The position numbers and the translations under genes are program-made. The notes under the pieces are model-generated. The model did no database searches and was not told where the DNA came from. It was given only the letters and a program-made list of their open reading frames with translations. Below are positions 4,632 through 64,000 of a DNA stretch of 64,000 bases, piece by piece. Source of the stretch: Sporosarcina sp. FSL K6-2383. Lineage in GTDB: Bacteria > Bacillota > Bacilli > Bacillales_A > Planococcaceae. Within the stretch, counting starts at the first letter, position 1; every line of letters begins with the position of its first letter. The stretch lies in NCBI RefSeq assembly GCF_038618305.1, contig NZ_CP152017.1, positions 2,271,501 through 2,335,500 of the forward strand, written 5' to 3'.

Positions 4632-4718
4632 AAATCTATCCCCGTTCTATTATTTCGCTTCTCGAACTATTATAAAGGAGGCATGAAAAAAAGTCACGGT
4701 AATTTTATCCTCGTGAAG

Positions 4719-4885
4719 TAAACAATGTAATCATGAAACTAAACAACATTCTTCGCAAACCTAACAACATTTCCTAAAAACTAGACAACGCTTTATTAAA
4801 AGTATGCAACGTTCAGTGAAGTAAACAACGTATTCACGAAACCAAGCAACGTTCCCCACAAACTTAATAACATCCCTTCATCTCG
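4719..4885. repeat. Array 1: eight degenerate units on a 21-bp step
   Basis: The core AAACTAAACAACGTT recurs with the central C at 4723, 4744, 4765, 4786, 4807, 4826, 4847 and 4868, that is steps of 21 bp with one of 19. The remaining 6 bp of each unit varies. The array is flanked by two copies of the parC terminator sequence, a degenerate one at 4686-4719 and the intact one at 4932-4965. It fills most of the 340-bp gap between parC and the MFS gene. Not coding. Confidence 0.8.
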
Positions 4886-4935: not shown

Positions 4936-4964
4936 AAGTCACGAGGAATTTATCCCCGTGACTT
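4936..4964 (-). terminator. parC terminator
   Basis: AAGTCACG/CGTGACTT stem with a GG/CC inner pair, followed by a run of T on the minus strand. It lies 8 bp after the parC stop. Confidence 0.85.
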
Positions 4965-4971
4965 CCCTTCT

Positions 4972-9438
<4,467 letters not shown>

Positions 9439-36602: not shown

Positions 36603-36894
36603 TTGACTTTGTTCAGACAACGTGTAATAATCATTCTAATTCATGAAACGATAAGCGTAGACGAAGATTAGTACTGGTAGAAATGGACAACAGAAAATGT
36701 GGTCACCGGCTGAAAGCCACAGTCCCCCTCCTACCCTGAACCTCCTTCTGAGCTGCCGTGGAAACCCGGCCGTGCCTTTCGCGTTACGAAAGAACGAGAT
36801 GTACTAGCCATATAATTAGCTAGTAAAACTAGGTGGTACCGCGGAAACATGCGTTTTCGTCCTTCTATTAAAGGATGAGAGCGCATGTTTTTTT
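36603..36894 (+). promoter_or_regulatory. T-box riboswitch upstream of proC (proline candidate)
   Basis: The conserved T-box AGGTGGTACCGCGG is at 36830-36843. The terminator follows: AAACATGCG at 36845 pairing with CGCATGTTT at 36882-36890 plus a T-run. A promoter TTGACT-(16/17)-TAATAA starts the leader at about 36603-36631. Upstream stems and a CTGAACCTCC segment (36737-36746) on the 3' side of stem I offer CCT, a proline codon, as specifier. Together with proC downstream this suggests tRNA-Pro sensing; the specifier assignment is inference. Confidence 0.88.
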
Positions 36895-36917: not shown

Positions 36918-37727
36918 ATGAAGAAAATTGTATTTATAGGTGCAGGTTCAATGGCAGAAGCCGTTATTGCAGGGATTGTTAAACAAGGTGTCATTGAGCC
37001 ACAGCAAGTCTATGTGATGAATAAATCAGATGACGAAAGACTGATTTCACTACAAAATAAATATGGTATTTCGATCGTTTGTAAAAATAAAGAAGCATTG
37101 AAAACAGCCGATTTAGTTGTACTGGCGACAAAACCGAAAGACATTCATCAGGCGATGTCGGACATTCGCCCTCTTCTTACGACACAAGCAGCTGTTTTAT
37201 CTGTCATTGCGGGCGTTTCCATCGAGACGATTGAAAATGGACTCGGCACAAGGCCAGTCGCTCGTTCCATGCCAAACACCTCTGCAACAATCGGTAAATC
37301 AGCAACTGGTGTTGCTATGAATAATGCTGTCGATGAAACTTTGCGTAAGCATGTCCTCGGTCTATTGGAAGCCATCGGTCTCGTGAAAGAAGTCGAAGAA
37401 GACGATCTTCATGCAGTCACCGCCCTATCCGGCAGTGGACCTGCTTATGTTTACTATTTGGCAGAAGCCCTTGAAGAAGCCGCAATCGCCAAAGGCATTT
37501 CCAAAGACGTCGCACGCTCTCTTATCATCCAAACACTCGAAGGCGCCGCGGCGATGATGAAAGAAACGGGCACAGAACCAGCGGAATTGCGGAAAAATGT
37601 AACGAGTCCGAATGGCACGACTGAAGCAGGATTAAAAGCATTGGAAGGTAGATTGTTTAAAGAAGCGATTGGAGAATGTATTGATAAAGCGACAGCACGC
37701 TCGCGGGAGCTTGGTGCGCAGTCTTAA
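36918..37727 (+). CDS. proC: Pyrroline-5-carboxylate reductase
   Basis: 269 aa. NAD(P)-binding GAGSMAEA at residues 8-15. The C-terminal signature covers VTALSGSGPAYVYYLAEAL and the terminal TSPNGTTEAGL. It makes proline from P5C. The start at 36918 is preceded by AAGGAGTG; the frame open from 36885 lies in the T-box terminator and is rejected. It is controlled by the T-box leader. The 21-bp array 2 forms its 3' untranslated region. Confidence 0.96.
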   Translation: MKKIVFIGAGSMAEAVIAGIVKQGVIEPQQVYVMNKSDDERLISLQNKYGISIVCKNKEALKTADLVVLATKPKDIHQAMSDIRPLLTTQAAVLSVIAGVSIETIENGLGTRPVARSMPNTSATIGKSATGVAMNNAVDETLRKHVLGLLEAIGLVKEVEEDDLHAVTALSGSGPAYVYYLAEALEEAAIAKGISKDVARSLIIQTLEGAAAMMKETGTEPAELRKNVTSPNGTTEAGLKALEGRLFKEAIGECIDKATARSRELGAQS

Positions 37728-37985
37728 GGTTAATGAACTCGGCTACTGGTTTCGGAAACTGGACTACCTCAGGGGCGAACTGAACTACCTTTTTTGCAAA
37801 ACTAGACTACCCCGGTGGAACTCAACTACCTATTTAGCTAACTGGACTACCTCAGAGACAAACTGAGCTACCTATTCAGCAAACTGGACTACCTCGGCGA
37901 AACTCGACTACCTATTTCGCTAACTGGATTACCCTGAGGACTAACTGAGCTACCTTTTCGGAAAACTTGGCTACCCACTCCAGAA
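37728..37985. repeat. Array 2: twelve degenerate units on a 21-bp step
   Basis: The core AAACTGGACTACC recurs with its first C of CTAC at 37743, 37764, 37785, 37807, 37826, 37847, 37868, 37889, 37908, 37929, 37950 and 37971, so mostly 21 bp with single steps of 22 and two of 19. Units alternate between endings like TCAGAGAC and TATTTCGC, giving a higher-order step of about 42 bp. It occupies the whole gap from the proC stop to the shared terminator. Confidence 0.85.
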
Positions 37986-38016: not shown

Positions 38017-38045
38017 AAACCCCGAAGCATCTACTCTTCGGGTTT
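38017..38045. terminator. Bidirectional terminator
   Basis: AAACCCCGAAG pairs with CTTCGGGTTT between convergent proC and the FtsW-like gene, beyond array 2. Confidence 0.85.
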
Positions 38046-38051
38046 CCCCAC

Positions 38052-39353
38052 CTATTGCTGTGGCTGCGCCGATCTCATAGACGTCAAGTCCTTCCGCCGA
38101 TAAACACTCAACACAACACCTATTATAAAAGCATTCAGCAAAATCGGCATTAAGCCGTAACTGATGAACGGCAAAGAAATGGAAGTAATCGGAATCAATC
38201 CTAACGTCATTGCAATATTGCTAACTAACTGAACCGTATACAGCGCAACTGCGCCCACTAACAACAGCTTGCCAAATGGATCATGGACGTTTCGAGCAAT
38301 CAATATAATTCTCACTATAAAAAGTGCAAGAATGGTGAATAGTGCAAAGGCAGCTAGCCAGCCAAAGTAATATGTAAAGCCAGCAAAAACAAAATCGGCG
38401 TGGACATCTGGTATCACTCCACTATTCAGTACGTTTCCAAACCAACCTGCCTTTGATATATGTTCTTGGAGGAGCAACATCATATAGCCCTCCCCCTCTG
38501 CATACTGTTCTGGATTGACAAATGCCAAAAGCCGAACTACCTGATACATTTTCATAGATGGCCAAGCTGTAAAAACTAGCAAAAGAAATGAGCCCACTAT
38601 TCCGCCGGTAATCGTAAGTTTTATTTTTCGACTAAACCGACTGCACCAAAATAGCCCAAATACCATGACGGTATAGATATACACTGCCGGAAGATTCGCA
38701 GTGTTCAAGAGGAACCAAAAAGAAACTATGAACAATAAACCTAAATGCCAAAGCTTCAACTTTTTATGATTAAAAAAGGAAGCCCATGCTAAAAGAAAAA
38801 ATGGCATAGTTATCAAGCTATCCAACGAATAGGGTCCTATCACTAGGAGAGATTTACCATTGCGTAAATTTGGAGAAAGTTGCAGTATCACTAAAAAAAG
38901 CATAGCAAGCCCATAAAATAACCAGCCAAACCTTTCTACTCTTCGATAATTTATTAACATTATGCTGAAAGCCAACATCCCACCTACCAAGGAATAGATA
39001 ACTTTCTGTGTAGTAAAATAGCTGGCATTTACGTTAAACCGCAATAGAAATTCTGTTTCAATAAACAAAATCGGTAAAAACCCCAACCCCATCGTCGTAA
39101 CCAACAACATCACCATCAGCCAATCCACTTTAGGTCGATGAAGCTTATTCAGCTTTTGCCCCAGCGTTATCGGACTACCCATCTGCATGACCGCTTTTTC
39201 TTCGGCTACTGTTTCATCTAATCCTTTTTCCAACCACTTGTTCTTCGCTTCTTTTAGATGATAATCCAACTCAACCGCCACAAACTCTTTCGCTTCTTTT
39301 GATTTAATCTGATCCCTGACTTCTCCTAAAAAGGATTGACTACTCTTGCGCAC
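38052..39353 (-). CDS. FtsW/RodA/SpoVE-like membrane protein with N-terminal HAAS-like domain
   Basis: 433 aa. Residues 1-75 are soluble and helical (HLKEAKNKWLEKGLDETVAEEKAV, then MGSP), resembling the HAAS/DUF1700 domain linked to PadR regulators. About ten TM helices of the SEDS type follow, ending with LPFISYGLMPILLNA, a version of the SEDS 'PFISYGG' motif. It may be a peptidoglycan polymerase or a signalling relative. Its start overlaps the PadR-like gene by 14 bp; third gene of the sigma operon. Confidence 0.75.
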   Translation of the reverse strand: MRKSSQSFLGEVRDQIKSKEAKEFVAVELDYHLKEAKNKWLEKGLDETVAEEKAVMQMGSPITLGQKLNKLHRPKVDWLMVMLLVTTMGLGFLPILFIETEFLLRFNVNASYFTTQKVIYSLVGGMLAFSIMLINYRRVERFGWLFYGLAMLFLVILQLSPNLRNGKSLLVIGPYSLDSLITMPFFLLAWASFFNHKKLKLWHLGLLFIVSFWFLLNTANLPAVYIYTVMVFGLFWCSRFSRKIKLTITGGIVGSFLLLVFTAWPSMKMYQVVRLLAFVNPEQYAEGEGYMMLLLQEHISKAGWFGNVLNSGVIPDVHADFVFAGFTYYFGWLAAFALFTILALFIVRIILIARNVHDPFGKLLLVGAVALYTVQLVSNIAMTLGLIPITSISLPFISYGLMPILLNAFIIGVVLSVYRRKDLTSMRSAQPQQ

Positions 39354-55689: not shown

Positions 55690-56330
55690 AACGACCACCT
55701 GTTAAAGCAGGTGGATTTGGACATAAAATGTCGACGACTAAAGTCGTTGCTTAAGACTAAAGTCATCTCAAAGCCTTTATGCTCAAGCAAACTAAATATC
55801 GACTAAACTCAATCTTCAATCCTAAATATATCGCTCCTGTCTTCATTGAGTTGGTTAGCAATAGAATTTCTAATCGTTTCTTCATCTACCGTTCCACCAG
55901 TGGCACAAAAATAGCCTCTTTCCCACAAATATTACTCCCAATATTTCTTTTTCAAATCGGGAAACTGCTCCTGCAATAGTCTTGATGATCTTCCTTTAAG
56001 ATATTGCATAGTTTTACTTGGAGCAAGACTTGGTGGATATGATAACAACAAGTAGATGTGGTCGTCCCTACACTTCCTTGCAAAATTGTGATTCCTCTCG
56101 CTTCACATCCTAGCCTGATTAACTCCCGTGTTCTTACGGCAATCGGACCACGTAACACCTTGTATCTGTATTTCGTTACCCAGATTACATGATACTTGAT
56201 GTCAAAAACCGCATGACTATTTTTTCCGTATCCGTCCATACTTTTCACCCCATCCCAAGTATAGACATCGAAGGAGAAGGCTAAAAGCGTATACCATCTA
56301 TAGACGGTGGGGTTAGACCACGTATTTGAA
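55690..56330 (-). mobile_element. IS200/IS605-family element (decayed)
   Basis: A tnpA-like gene lies between hairpin-bearing ends: CCACCTG-TTAAAG-CAGGTGG (55695-55714) and ACGACT-AA-AGTCGT (55734-55747) at one side, ACCATCTATAGACGGTGG near 56300 at the other. IS200 elements move as single-stranded circles via such subterminal hairpins. tnpA is broken, so this copy cannot move on its own. Confidence 0.75.
55809..56239 (-). pseudogene. tnpA, IS200/IS605 Y1 transposase, frameshifted and with a stop
   Basis: The start KYHVIWVTKYRYKVLRGPIA to ILQGSVG is intact. One base is then missing near 56067-56090, and the continuation DDHIYLLLSYPPSLAPSKTM, QYLKGRSSRLLQEQFP, KYWE-stop (55932-55934), WERGYFCATGGTVDEETI is in the next frame. 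The HUH motif is changed (HIY instead of HIH), so the metal site is also damaged. Confidence 0.85.
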
Positions 56331-62870: not shown

Positions 62871-62945
62871 TTTATGACCGTCTTGACTGTAGTTATGATC
62901 GTCACGAACTACTTTATGACCGTCTTAGCTATCGTTATGACCGCC
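62871..62945. repeat. Array 3: four units on an exact 21-bp step
   Basis: The core TTATGACCGTC recurs with the A of ATG at 62874, 62895, 62916 and 62937. Units 1 and 3 (CTTTATGACCGTCTT) resemble each other more than units 2 and 4, again giving a 42-bp order. The last unit contains the stop codon and final residues of rnz. Confidence 0.8.
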
Positions 62946-63879
62946 ATTCGATTACTGCGCCATCTTTCCACTCAAAACGTGAAAAATCCTCCGCTATGTA
63001 CAAATCGGAAAAAATAGCCTTGCCTTGTTCCTTGAGCTTGGCCACATCACTCGGCATGAAACGTGCACTAATATGATTGGCAATCAGCGTCTTCACACCT
63101 GCTTCTTGTGCCACACGTGCTGCATCACCAATGGTCGAATGTCCATACTCTTTTGCTAAATTTCCAGTATCCATATCGAAGGTAGCCTCGTGGACAAGGA
63201 TATCTGCATTTCGGGCTAGCTCAACAGCAGCTGGACAATAACTTGTATCGCCAAGAATGGCAACTCTAAACCCATCCTGCGGTTCGCCTGTGACCTCATG
63301 ACTATGCACAATCCGTCCATCTTCCAATGTCACATCCTGCCCATCTTTTAACTGTTTCAGCAGCGGGCCACTTGGCACTCCAGCTTCTTTCACATTGTCT
63401 ATGAGCAACTTTCCTGGAAGTGGCTTTTGTTCAATTCGATAGCCTAGACATGGAATGACGTGCTGTAAATTGTTTGCAACCACTAAGAATTCATCATCTT
63501 CAACGACAATGCCATCTTCAATTTCATGAATCTGTAGCGCATAATTCAAATGTGTGTTGGTAATCCGTAACGTCGTTTCCAACCATTCTTCAAGACCCAC
63601 TGGTCCATAAATATCAAGTGGCTCATTGCCACCTAGAAATGATCGTGAGCCGATTAACCCAGGCAAGCCAAAAATATGATCACCATGCAAATGCGTGATA
63701 AATACTTTGCTAATTTTTCGCGGTTTCAATGAGGTATGTAAAATTTGATGTTGTGTCGCTTCTCCACAGTCAAACAGCCAGTAGCCTTTCCCTTCAGCAG
63801 ATAGATTCAACACTAATGCAGATGTATTACGCAGTTTGGATGGCATTCCTGCACCTGTCCCTAAAAACTGTAGTTCCAT
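62935..63879 (-). CDS. rnz: Ribonuclease Z
   Basis: 314 aa. Zinc motif THLHGDHIFGLPG (His63, His65, Asp67, His68) and the RNase Z exosite/PxKxRN-like start FLGTGAGMPSKLRN. It removes the 3' trailer of tRNA precursors that lack encoded CCA. ATG at 63879 after AAAGGAGGGATGTTATT. It directly follows the Pol IV-like gene, whose TGA overlaps the leader, as yqjH/yqjK lie close in B. subtilis. The 3' end is embedded in 21-bp array 3. Confidence 0.95.
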   Translation of the reverse strand: MELQFLGTGAGMPSKLRNTSALVLNLSAEGKGYWLFDCGEATQHQILHTSLKPRKISKVFITHLHGDHIFGLPGLIGSRSFLGGNEPLDIYGPVGLEEWLETTLRITNTHLNYALQIHEIEDGIVVEDDEFLVVANNLQHVIPCLGYRIEQKPLPGKLLIDNVKEAGVPSGPLLKQLKDGQDVTLEDGRIVHSHEVTGEPQDGFRVAILGDTSYCPAAVELARNADILVHEATFDMDTGNLAKEYGHSTIGDAARVAQEAGVKTLIANHISARFMPSDVAKLKEQGKAIFSDLYIAEDFSRFEWKDGAVIEWRS

Positions 63880-63895
63880 AATAACATCCCTCCTT

Positions 63896-64000
63896 TCATA
63901 CATTGCCCCGCTTCACTGAACCGGGACCAAATTTTTGCTCTAACTGTGACAGCAAACTATCCATTTGTTCTTCTTTAGCATGTTTTTCAAAATTATAAAA
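63896..64000 (-). CDS. C-terminus of a DNA polymerase IV-like (DinB) gene, partial
   Basis: 34 codons before a TGA: NFEKHAKEEQMDSLLSQLEQ, then KFGPGSVKRG. This matches the end of Bacillus DinB proteins (FSYEKHAKEE...L..KYG....RG). Position next to rnz agrees with yqjH. The beginning of the gene is outside the window. Confidence 0.6.
   Translation of the reverse strand, partial: FYNFEKHAKEEQMDSLLSQLEQKFGPGSVKRGNV

Follow-up and report, generated by a model that had tools for sequence, protein, structure and literature searches.

Plasmid iterons are direct repeats about two helical turns apart, whose sequence differs from system to system and whose initiator binds one face of the helix, and CRISPR arrays combine a constant repeat of approximately 21-50 bp with unique spacers of similar, fixed length. 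Closest among known systems to the arrays described here are the staphylococcal STAR elements, which excerpts of one source (PMC3532100) present as direct repeats, roughly 50 bp long, in intergenic DNA, with a constant 14-bp box of one consensus, T(G/A/T)TGTTG(G/T)GGCCC(C/A), at least 40 bp between boxes, and spacers that resemble one another inside a locus but not from one locus to the next; STAR loci expand and contract, differ from species to species and have no known function. REP sequences, according to the parts of two further sources that deal with them, are palindromic and are spread by RAYT transposases (PMC6379681, PMC8049555). We found no account of two-turn arrays in the open-access literature.

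The array studied here lies in a 64,000-nucleotide stretch of Sporosarcina sp. FSL K6-2383 DNA (the window), for which a preliminary description had reported a twelve-unit array in the 3' region of proC. The array and its neighbors are listed below; proC, parC and rnz are names taken from the preliminary description, which was made from the sequence alone.

36918..37727, plus strand: proC, with its end 8 bp away from the array's far edge.
37735..37975, minus strand: family-A array of 12 boxes, a profile match at genome position 2309235-2309475.
38018..38045, minus strand: intrinsic-terminator hairpin of the host gene, with its T-run on the minus strand and its end about 43 nt short of the first box.
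38052..39353, minus strand: host gene by position and orientation, for a FTSW_RODA_SPOVE family protein of 433 aa.

When up to 4 mismatches to the core AAACTGGACTACC were allowed, the array at 37735..37975 resolved into 12 boxes, starting at 37735, 37756, 37777, 37799, 37818, 37839, 37860, 37881, 37900, 37921, 37942 and 37963. Re-measurement returned exactly the series of steps first reported (21, 21, 22, 19, 21, 21, 21, 19, 21, 21 and 21 bp) and upheld the two-turn phase. Read in the minus-strand sense, which is the sense of the host gene, each box is approximately GGTAGYYSAGTT. Self-identity of positions 37728-37985 reached 0.48 at lag 21, 0.46 at lag 42 and 0.56 at lag 82, compared with a maximum of at most 0.41 at lags 10 to 99 in 2000 first-order Markov shuffles. 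The 42-bp order described earlier proved to be real but secondary to one of 82 bp (21+21+21+19); as a main period it was discarded, since Tandem Repeats Finder scored period 82 at 275, period 42 at 189 and period 21 at 83. Each of the six frames holds 3 to 11 stops, in agreement with the earlier view that the array is not coding, and a heptad-repeat protein was rejected on these stops and on the 19- and 22-bp steps. Of its two neighbors, proC and the ftsW/rodA-like gene, the array adjoins the end of proC, as had been stated, but it belongs with the convergent ftsW/rodA-like gene, because box orientation, position and the terminator lying between gene and array all indicate this gene, and not proC, as host. 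Upstream of proC is a T-box leader (36649-36867, plus strand; 79.5 bits, E 3.5e-17) that scores below the Rfam gathering score of 93 and is therefore missed by a default scan. A 53-bp tandem repeat found by Tandem Repeats Finder at 2237-2347 (two copies, 89% matches) is not of the 21-bp class.

Compared with STAR elements as those excerpts describe them, arrays of the family to which the window array belongs (family A) likewise lie in intergenic DNA and have a short box that stays constant and spacers particular to each locus. They differ in the box itself, GGTAGYYSAGTT, and in having spacers of approximately 6-10 bp (at steps of 18-22 bp) and a two-turn step where STAR has at least 40 bp between boxes; the 82-bp four-box unit, the position after terminators and the many unrelated boxes at one step also set the arrays apart from STAR in that account. 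Like iterons, they are direct repeats about two helical turns apart; unlike iterons, they are chromosomal and stand behind ordinary genes at dozens of loci, and a 34-box family-A array elsewhere in the genome (L220) had no match in 72,556 plasmid records, nor any phage match when used as a query, which speaks against carriage by a plasmid or phage. Long open reading frames (237 aa, KLDYL-type repeats) run through that array at L220:3214-3927 on the minus strand; they are probably spurious and could be annotated as proteins. The likeness to CRISPR is that of a constant repeat with fixed-length spacers, but boxes of 9-12 bp, spacers of 7-12 bp and the recurrence of family-A spacers 82 bp apart bear out the earlier statement that the array is not CRISPR-like. 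The same holds for its distinction from a plain tandem duplication. Enterobacterial BIME-2/REP elements, in the parts of the sources that treat them, are similarly extragenic, repeated and locally amplified, with a possible topological role (PMC6379681, PMC8049555); the present arrays differ in having no palindromic unit (in fold tests the window array did not surpass its shuffles), and an intact Y1 gene was not found in the genome that contains the window (G000).

A search for the box pair with spacer length left free found 162 occurrences in the 3.67-Mb G000 genome and 0 in a reversed control. A sequence-only profile built from 44 superunits gave 98 matches at E 0.001 or better; among the matches listed, merging yielded 34 loci, one of which (1284599) is of family B, leaving at least 33 family-A loci, and weaker ones may be unseen. 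The family-A consensus, in the minus-strand reading of the window, is approximately GGTAG-Y-Y-S-AGTT: the middle positions are almost always pyrimidine, pyrimidine, and C or G, with all eight combinations occurring, and most other positions are nearly invariant. Four boxes spaced 21-21-21-19 form the principal repeating unit of the family, of 82 bp. Across 32 family-A loci of three species, steps of 21 bp occurred 297 times, 19 bp 89 times, 20 bp seven times, 22 bp three times and 18 bp once, so that 386 of 397 adjacent steps below 30 bp (97%) were exactly 21 or 19. The 19-bp step comes mostly every fourth, which makes 82 bp equal to eight turns of 10.25 bp. Spacers are largely common to copies 82 bp apart and unrelated between loci; we read the fixed steps despite unrelated spacers as a constraint on helical phase.

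Family-A arrays occupy a characteristic position. Using a scan that overlooks visible terminators (after eno and before the L005 array) and probably makes a few false calls, with intergenic sets that are approximate owing to a crude ORF caller (minimum 60-100 aa, no homology), we found an intrinsic terminator upstream in the box sense of 24 of 30 family-A arrays compared with 11 of 116 control intergenic blocks (Fisher p about 7e-14). The 30 are G000 loci with sufficient flanking sequence and do not include the first array at 1073416, L205 or L207/L221; at L205 and L207/L221 a separate scan found the terminator absent, giving 24 of 32 overall. In 20 of 28 family-A rows that have a terminator, 7-43 bp separate its end from the first box. 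The upstream gene is co-oriented with the box sense in 30 of 32 G000 family-A arrays, a count that includes the correction of two spurious ORF calls (L032, L220), and its end is separated from the array by 44 to about 205 bp, with a gap of 2 bp in L209; the downstream gene may have either orientation. Hosts are ordinary terminator-ended genes, among them rpsI, rpsO, ftsZ, minD, pyrE, lipoamide dehydrogenase, prfC, glucose PTS and wecB. Exceptions to the position rule are L205, a two-box remnant, L209, whose array begins at the stop codon, and L207/L221, an array pair split by a NERD-domain (nuclease-related) gene. That gene (L207:2218-3270, minus strand) stands between the two G000 arrays, and the ortholog of the locus in strain REN13 (L066) is undivided. 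Outside family A, the scan gave no terminator for 7 of 20 arrays, and of the 13 that it did call, two or more (B4, G014p) are weak in appearance. In this group the boxes vary in their orientation to the terminator, as in two G008 arrays, and one G014 array (L185:13969) apparently lies between divergent gene starts.

The preliminary description had also pointed to a 21-bp step with other unit sequences beside parC and at the end of rnz, and both arrays are present:

4716..4872, minus strand: family-B array, box CGTTGTYTAGTT, 8 boxes, steps 21, 21, 19, 21, 21, 21, 21.
4936..4966, minus strand: intrinsic terminator between an 809-aa minus-strand gene (4972-7401, named parC) and the family-B array.
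62872..62955, strand given as ".": family-E array, box TTATGAYCGYC, 4 boxes, steps exactly 21, 21, 21.
62935..63903, minus strand: gene named rnz.

The last family-E box (62935-62955) overlaps the final residues and the stop codon of the rnz-named gene and gives the impression that the array extended into the end of the gene.

Autocorrelation of intergenic DNA at lags 14-49, in 400 kb of even stretches plus the window, produced ten strong hits in G000, eight of them with a lag of 21 or 42; leaving out the window reduces this to six of eight. By comparison, there were 2 hits in 573 segments of Markov nulls and 0 in 36 of E. coli; a lag-27 hit at L145 falls in an apparent real short gene. Hits at these lags made up 1/1 in G005, 2/2 in G008, 1/3 in G018 and 3/3 in G014, all congeners, and 1/1 in 319 kb sampled from eighteen other genera of the family. 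All family samples together gave 16 of 20 with the window and 14 of 18 without it. None of six hits in 646 kb from other families of the class was at lag 21 or 42; two of them, both in G038 at lags 41 and 22, were by eye not of the 21-bp class. Thus the excess of 21-bp autocorrelation that had been proposed as a check was found in relatives.

Unrelated boxes share the step in G000, in the congeners G005, G008, G014, G015, G016 and G018, and in G061 and G071 of other genera: CGTTGTYTAGTT, CTACCG, AACTGTMATG, TTATGAYCGYC, TTATCGATCA, TGCAAGCAAA, TGTCCGATA, ATAGAGCGG, GTCGCYGGTAAA, TTATTGGC, GCRCTGAAA, TGTAAACTC, TATTGGGCG and CGGTCGCTAA. In several short arrays a 9-11 bp box is constant, the rest is apparently unrelated and all steps are 21. 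The 21-21-21-19 scheme is common to families A, B and D, and in a G016 array 20 and 21 alternate. The G008 box TGTCCGATA recurs in G071, from another genus and the sole genome with the exact pair among 121 of the family. Behind eno, arrays with three different boxes occur in 3 of 23 genomes of the genus, with a single remnant box in G014, and behind proC again 3 of 23 genomes carry arrays, with three different boxes; the gene after proC varies among congeners, being ftsW-like in G000 and G014 and not in G015. Autocorrelation detected no array in 20 of 23 congeners behind eno and in 20 of 23 behind proC, and therefore no single array is essential.

Family A itself is narrowly distributed. Its exact box pair was found in one species, Arthrobacter beigongshangensis REN13, among 84,980 named species genomes, a collection that may omit the window's own genome and near kin; the only other match, in a Bordetella MAG (L073), was single, in 60% GC DNA, and was judged to be chance. 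The REN13 loci are L063-L079 except L073 (records NZ_JADHDX...). Five of them have 40-45% GC, with flanking DNA 77-91% identical to G000; REN13 is close kin of G000 whatever its label, and the genus label Arthrobacter looks wrong. Exact box-A pairs were present in 2 of 61 genomes and profile matches in 5 of 38, three of which (G002, G011, G021) had one weak match each and no clear array. Nine of 16 REN13 family-A loci, including that of the window (L070), and 5 of 7 compared G014 loci are at sites where G000 has an array.

Conservation within these arrays is concentrated in the boxes. Among same-phase copies 82 bp apart, with pairs of more than 8 differences left out, fixed box positions differed in 0.4-8% of pairs (G2, T3 and T11 in 0.4-1.2%), spacers in 12-29%, and the YYS positions in 13-21%, mostly as C/T at Y and C/G at S. 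Four clean between-species pairs, picked after the alignments were seen, were 92-98% identical in the fixed box, 65-74% in spacers, 60-84% at YYS and 80-92% in flanks; over all 12 pairs, which include poor alignments such as L207/L066, the values were 0.88 for the fixed box, 0.66 for spacers and 0.81 for flanks.

We favor the explanation, with a probability of roughly 40%, that proteins bind the arrays in a row, all on the same side of the helix and directly after a terminator, and that the arrays act as a boundary. Direct observation covers how the arrays are built, how strictly they keep the step, that their boxes are constrained, that they follow terminators and that they are conserved at orthologous loci; from these we infer protein binding, its cooperativity and the role of the resulting patch. 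The double helix, not RNA or a coding sequence, would be what is read, because the step equals two turns while spacers drift, and recognition of the boxes is suggested because they are under constraint. Short recognition boxes two helical turns apart would face one side of the helix, and a DNA-binding protein occupying them side by side could form a cooperative, possibly bent or wrapped patch. Such a patch would most likely be a boundary at the end of a transcription unit, obstructing RNA polymerase that reads through, offering a topological docking site, or doing both. The preliminary description had left a protein platform and a structured 3' RNA side by side; we favor the platform, as the more plausible interpretation, and fold tests disfavor the RNA. 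Two-turn rows with changing words suggest an undescribed DNA-level device, probably a docking platform for proteins. Our analysis found no binding protein for the arrays, and the five or more box families in one genome would require either several proteins or a single protein able to recognize more than sequence. Also counting against the platform are the absence of arrays from most congeners behind eno and behind proC, the arrays outside family A that lack a terminator, vary in box orientation or apparently lie between divergent gene starts, and the position of L205 and L207/L221 within family A. If the protein row is real, a bacterial family places helix-phased DNA platforms behind many transcription units, where annotation overlooks them. 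Phase, box and position are separable here, with the same gene end carrying the same step and a different box as a natural control, so that the protein-scaffold question for intergenic direct repeats becomes directly testable by a phase shift.

It is also possible, though on balance doubtful, that the two-turn phase itself is the conserved trait, with boxes freely exchanged at fixed spacing, and that the arrays form a class of chromosomal elements, scaffolds kept behind transcription units, defined by geometry and not by sequence. The partner in this doubtful case might read helical phase or shape, or fast-evolving box readers might share one architecture. A functional role for the exchange of boxes at constant phase would make such a class categorically new.

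A somewhat unlikely alternative to a protein row is a selfish or neutral minisatellite that arises behind genes by unequal recombination and slippage, the 21-bp step being a functionless by-product. The detected units of orthologous arrays do vary (21 and 28, 12 and 6, 3 and 17), recent amplification has occurred in blocks of 82, 103 and 41 bp, and the rarity of box A among genomes points the same way. Under neutral drift, however, boxes should decay together with spacers and indels should appear, yet boxes were kept and spacers were not, 97% of the counted steps are 19 or 21, and unrelated boxes converge on one step. A minisatellite thus explains the turnover but not the held boxes.

Unlikely in itself, yet a strong rival to the protein row, is a dock for gyrase or another wrapping nucleoid protein, in which phased bendable DNA would wrap a topoisomerase at sites of positive supercoiling built up by transcription, in the way that BIME-2 elements of E. 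coli may, and box sequence would be of minor importance. Excerpts of one source count in its favor: E. coli gyrase sites have a motif with phased 10-bp G/C variation, gyrase accumulates downstream of highly transcribed operons, and BIME-2 elements resemble strong gyrase sites in their properties (PMC6379681). In a test that this motif suggested after the arrays had been seen, the unit GC profile of 15 box families showed a surplus of power at 10.5 bp (Fisher p 1.9e-4) and none at the other six harmonics (p 0.27-0.98). A gyrase dock would also account for exchangeable boxes at fixed phase. Against it, the 10.5-bp signal is absent from families A, B and D (p 0.68, 0.57 and 0.87), and box A is kept letter by letter at about 33 loci.

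We consider it improbable that the arrays are replication-polar elements, fork barriers or orienting sequences that place GGTAGYYSAGTT on the leading strand. With dnaA at 0.465 Mb in G000 and the terminus assumed near 2.05 Mb, the family-A box is on the leading strand at all 33 loci merged from the matches listed, in excess of the 300 of 414 genes (72%) that are co-directional in sampled stretches (binomial p 2.4e-5), and on the main G014 contig, where the origin position was not located, six plus-strand loci are followed by five minus-strand loci. The bias of family A may instead reflect which genes acquired arrays, and family B, some of whose loci were detected as no more than a single box pair, is leading in 8 of 11, no more than genes generally; replication polarity therefore holds for family A and fails for family B, and as a general rule it was rejected.

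A structured or regulatory RNA in a 3' read-through transcript is very improbable. The sense orientation of family A is fixed and the window array contains short local inverted repeats such as GCGAAA/TTTCGC, but the array stands behind a terminator, its fold z-scores are -0.41 and -0.30, RNAalifold placed 0 consensus pairs on 44 aligned superunits, and none of the 40 strongest column pairs showed convincing pairing-type covariation, high pairing fractions stemming from nearly fixed columns (the A/T column pair 41/62 pairs in 48%). Rfam likewise gave no family at gathering score in the window, and the best match inside the array was a snoRNA family (E 0.15, 17.6 bits, gathering score 50). The D-loop of tRNAs carries GG, and GGTAGCTCAGTT was dropped by eye as a tRNA D-arm on finding that the next bases are not this GG.

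GTAG is the hallmark tetranucleotide of REPs. It occurs within the box, and the arrays are dispersed, directional and extragenic, but a mobile element of REP type, dispersed through a Y1 (RAYT/IS200) transposase, is highly improbable and was rejected, because G000 has Y1_Tnp only as a frame-broken copy and congeners with unbroken Y1 matches (e.g., G003, G004 and G013) have no family-A match; hairpin units are also absent from the 44 superunits in fold tests. The frame-broken copy, of IS200 type, lies at about 55851-56209 on the minus strand and is the sole Y1_Tnp region matched in G000.
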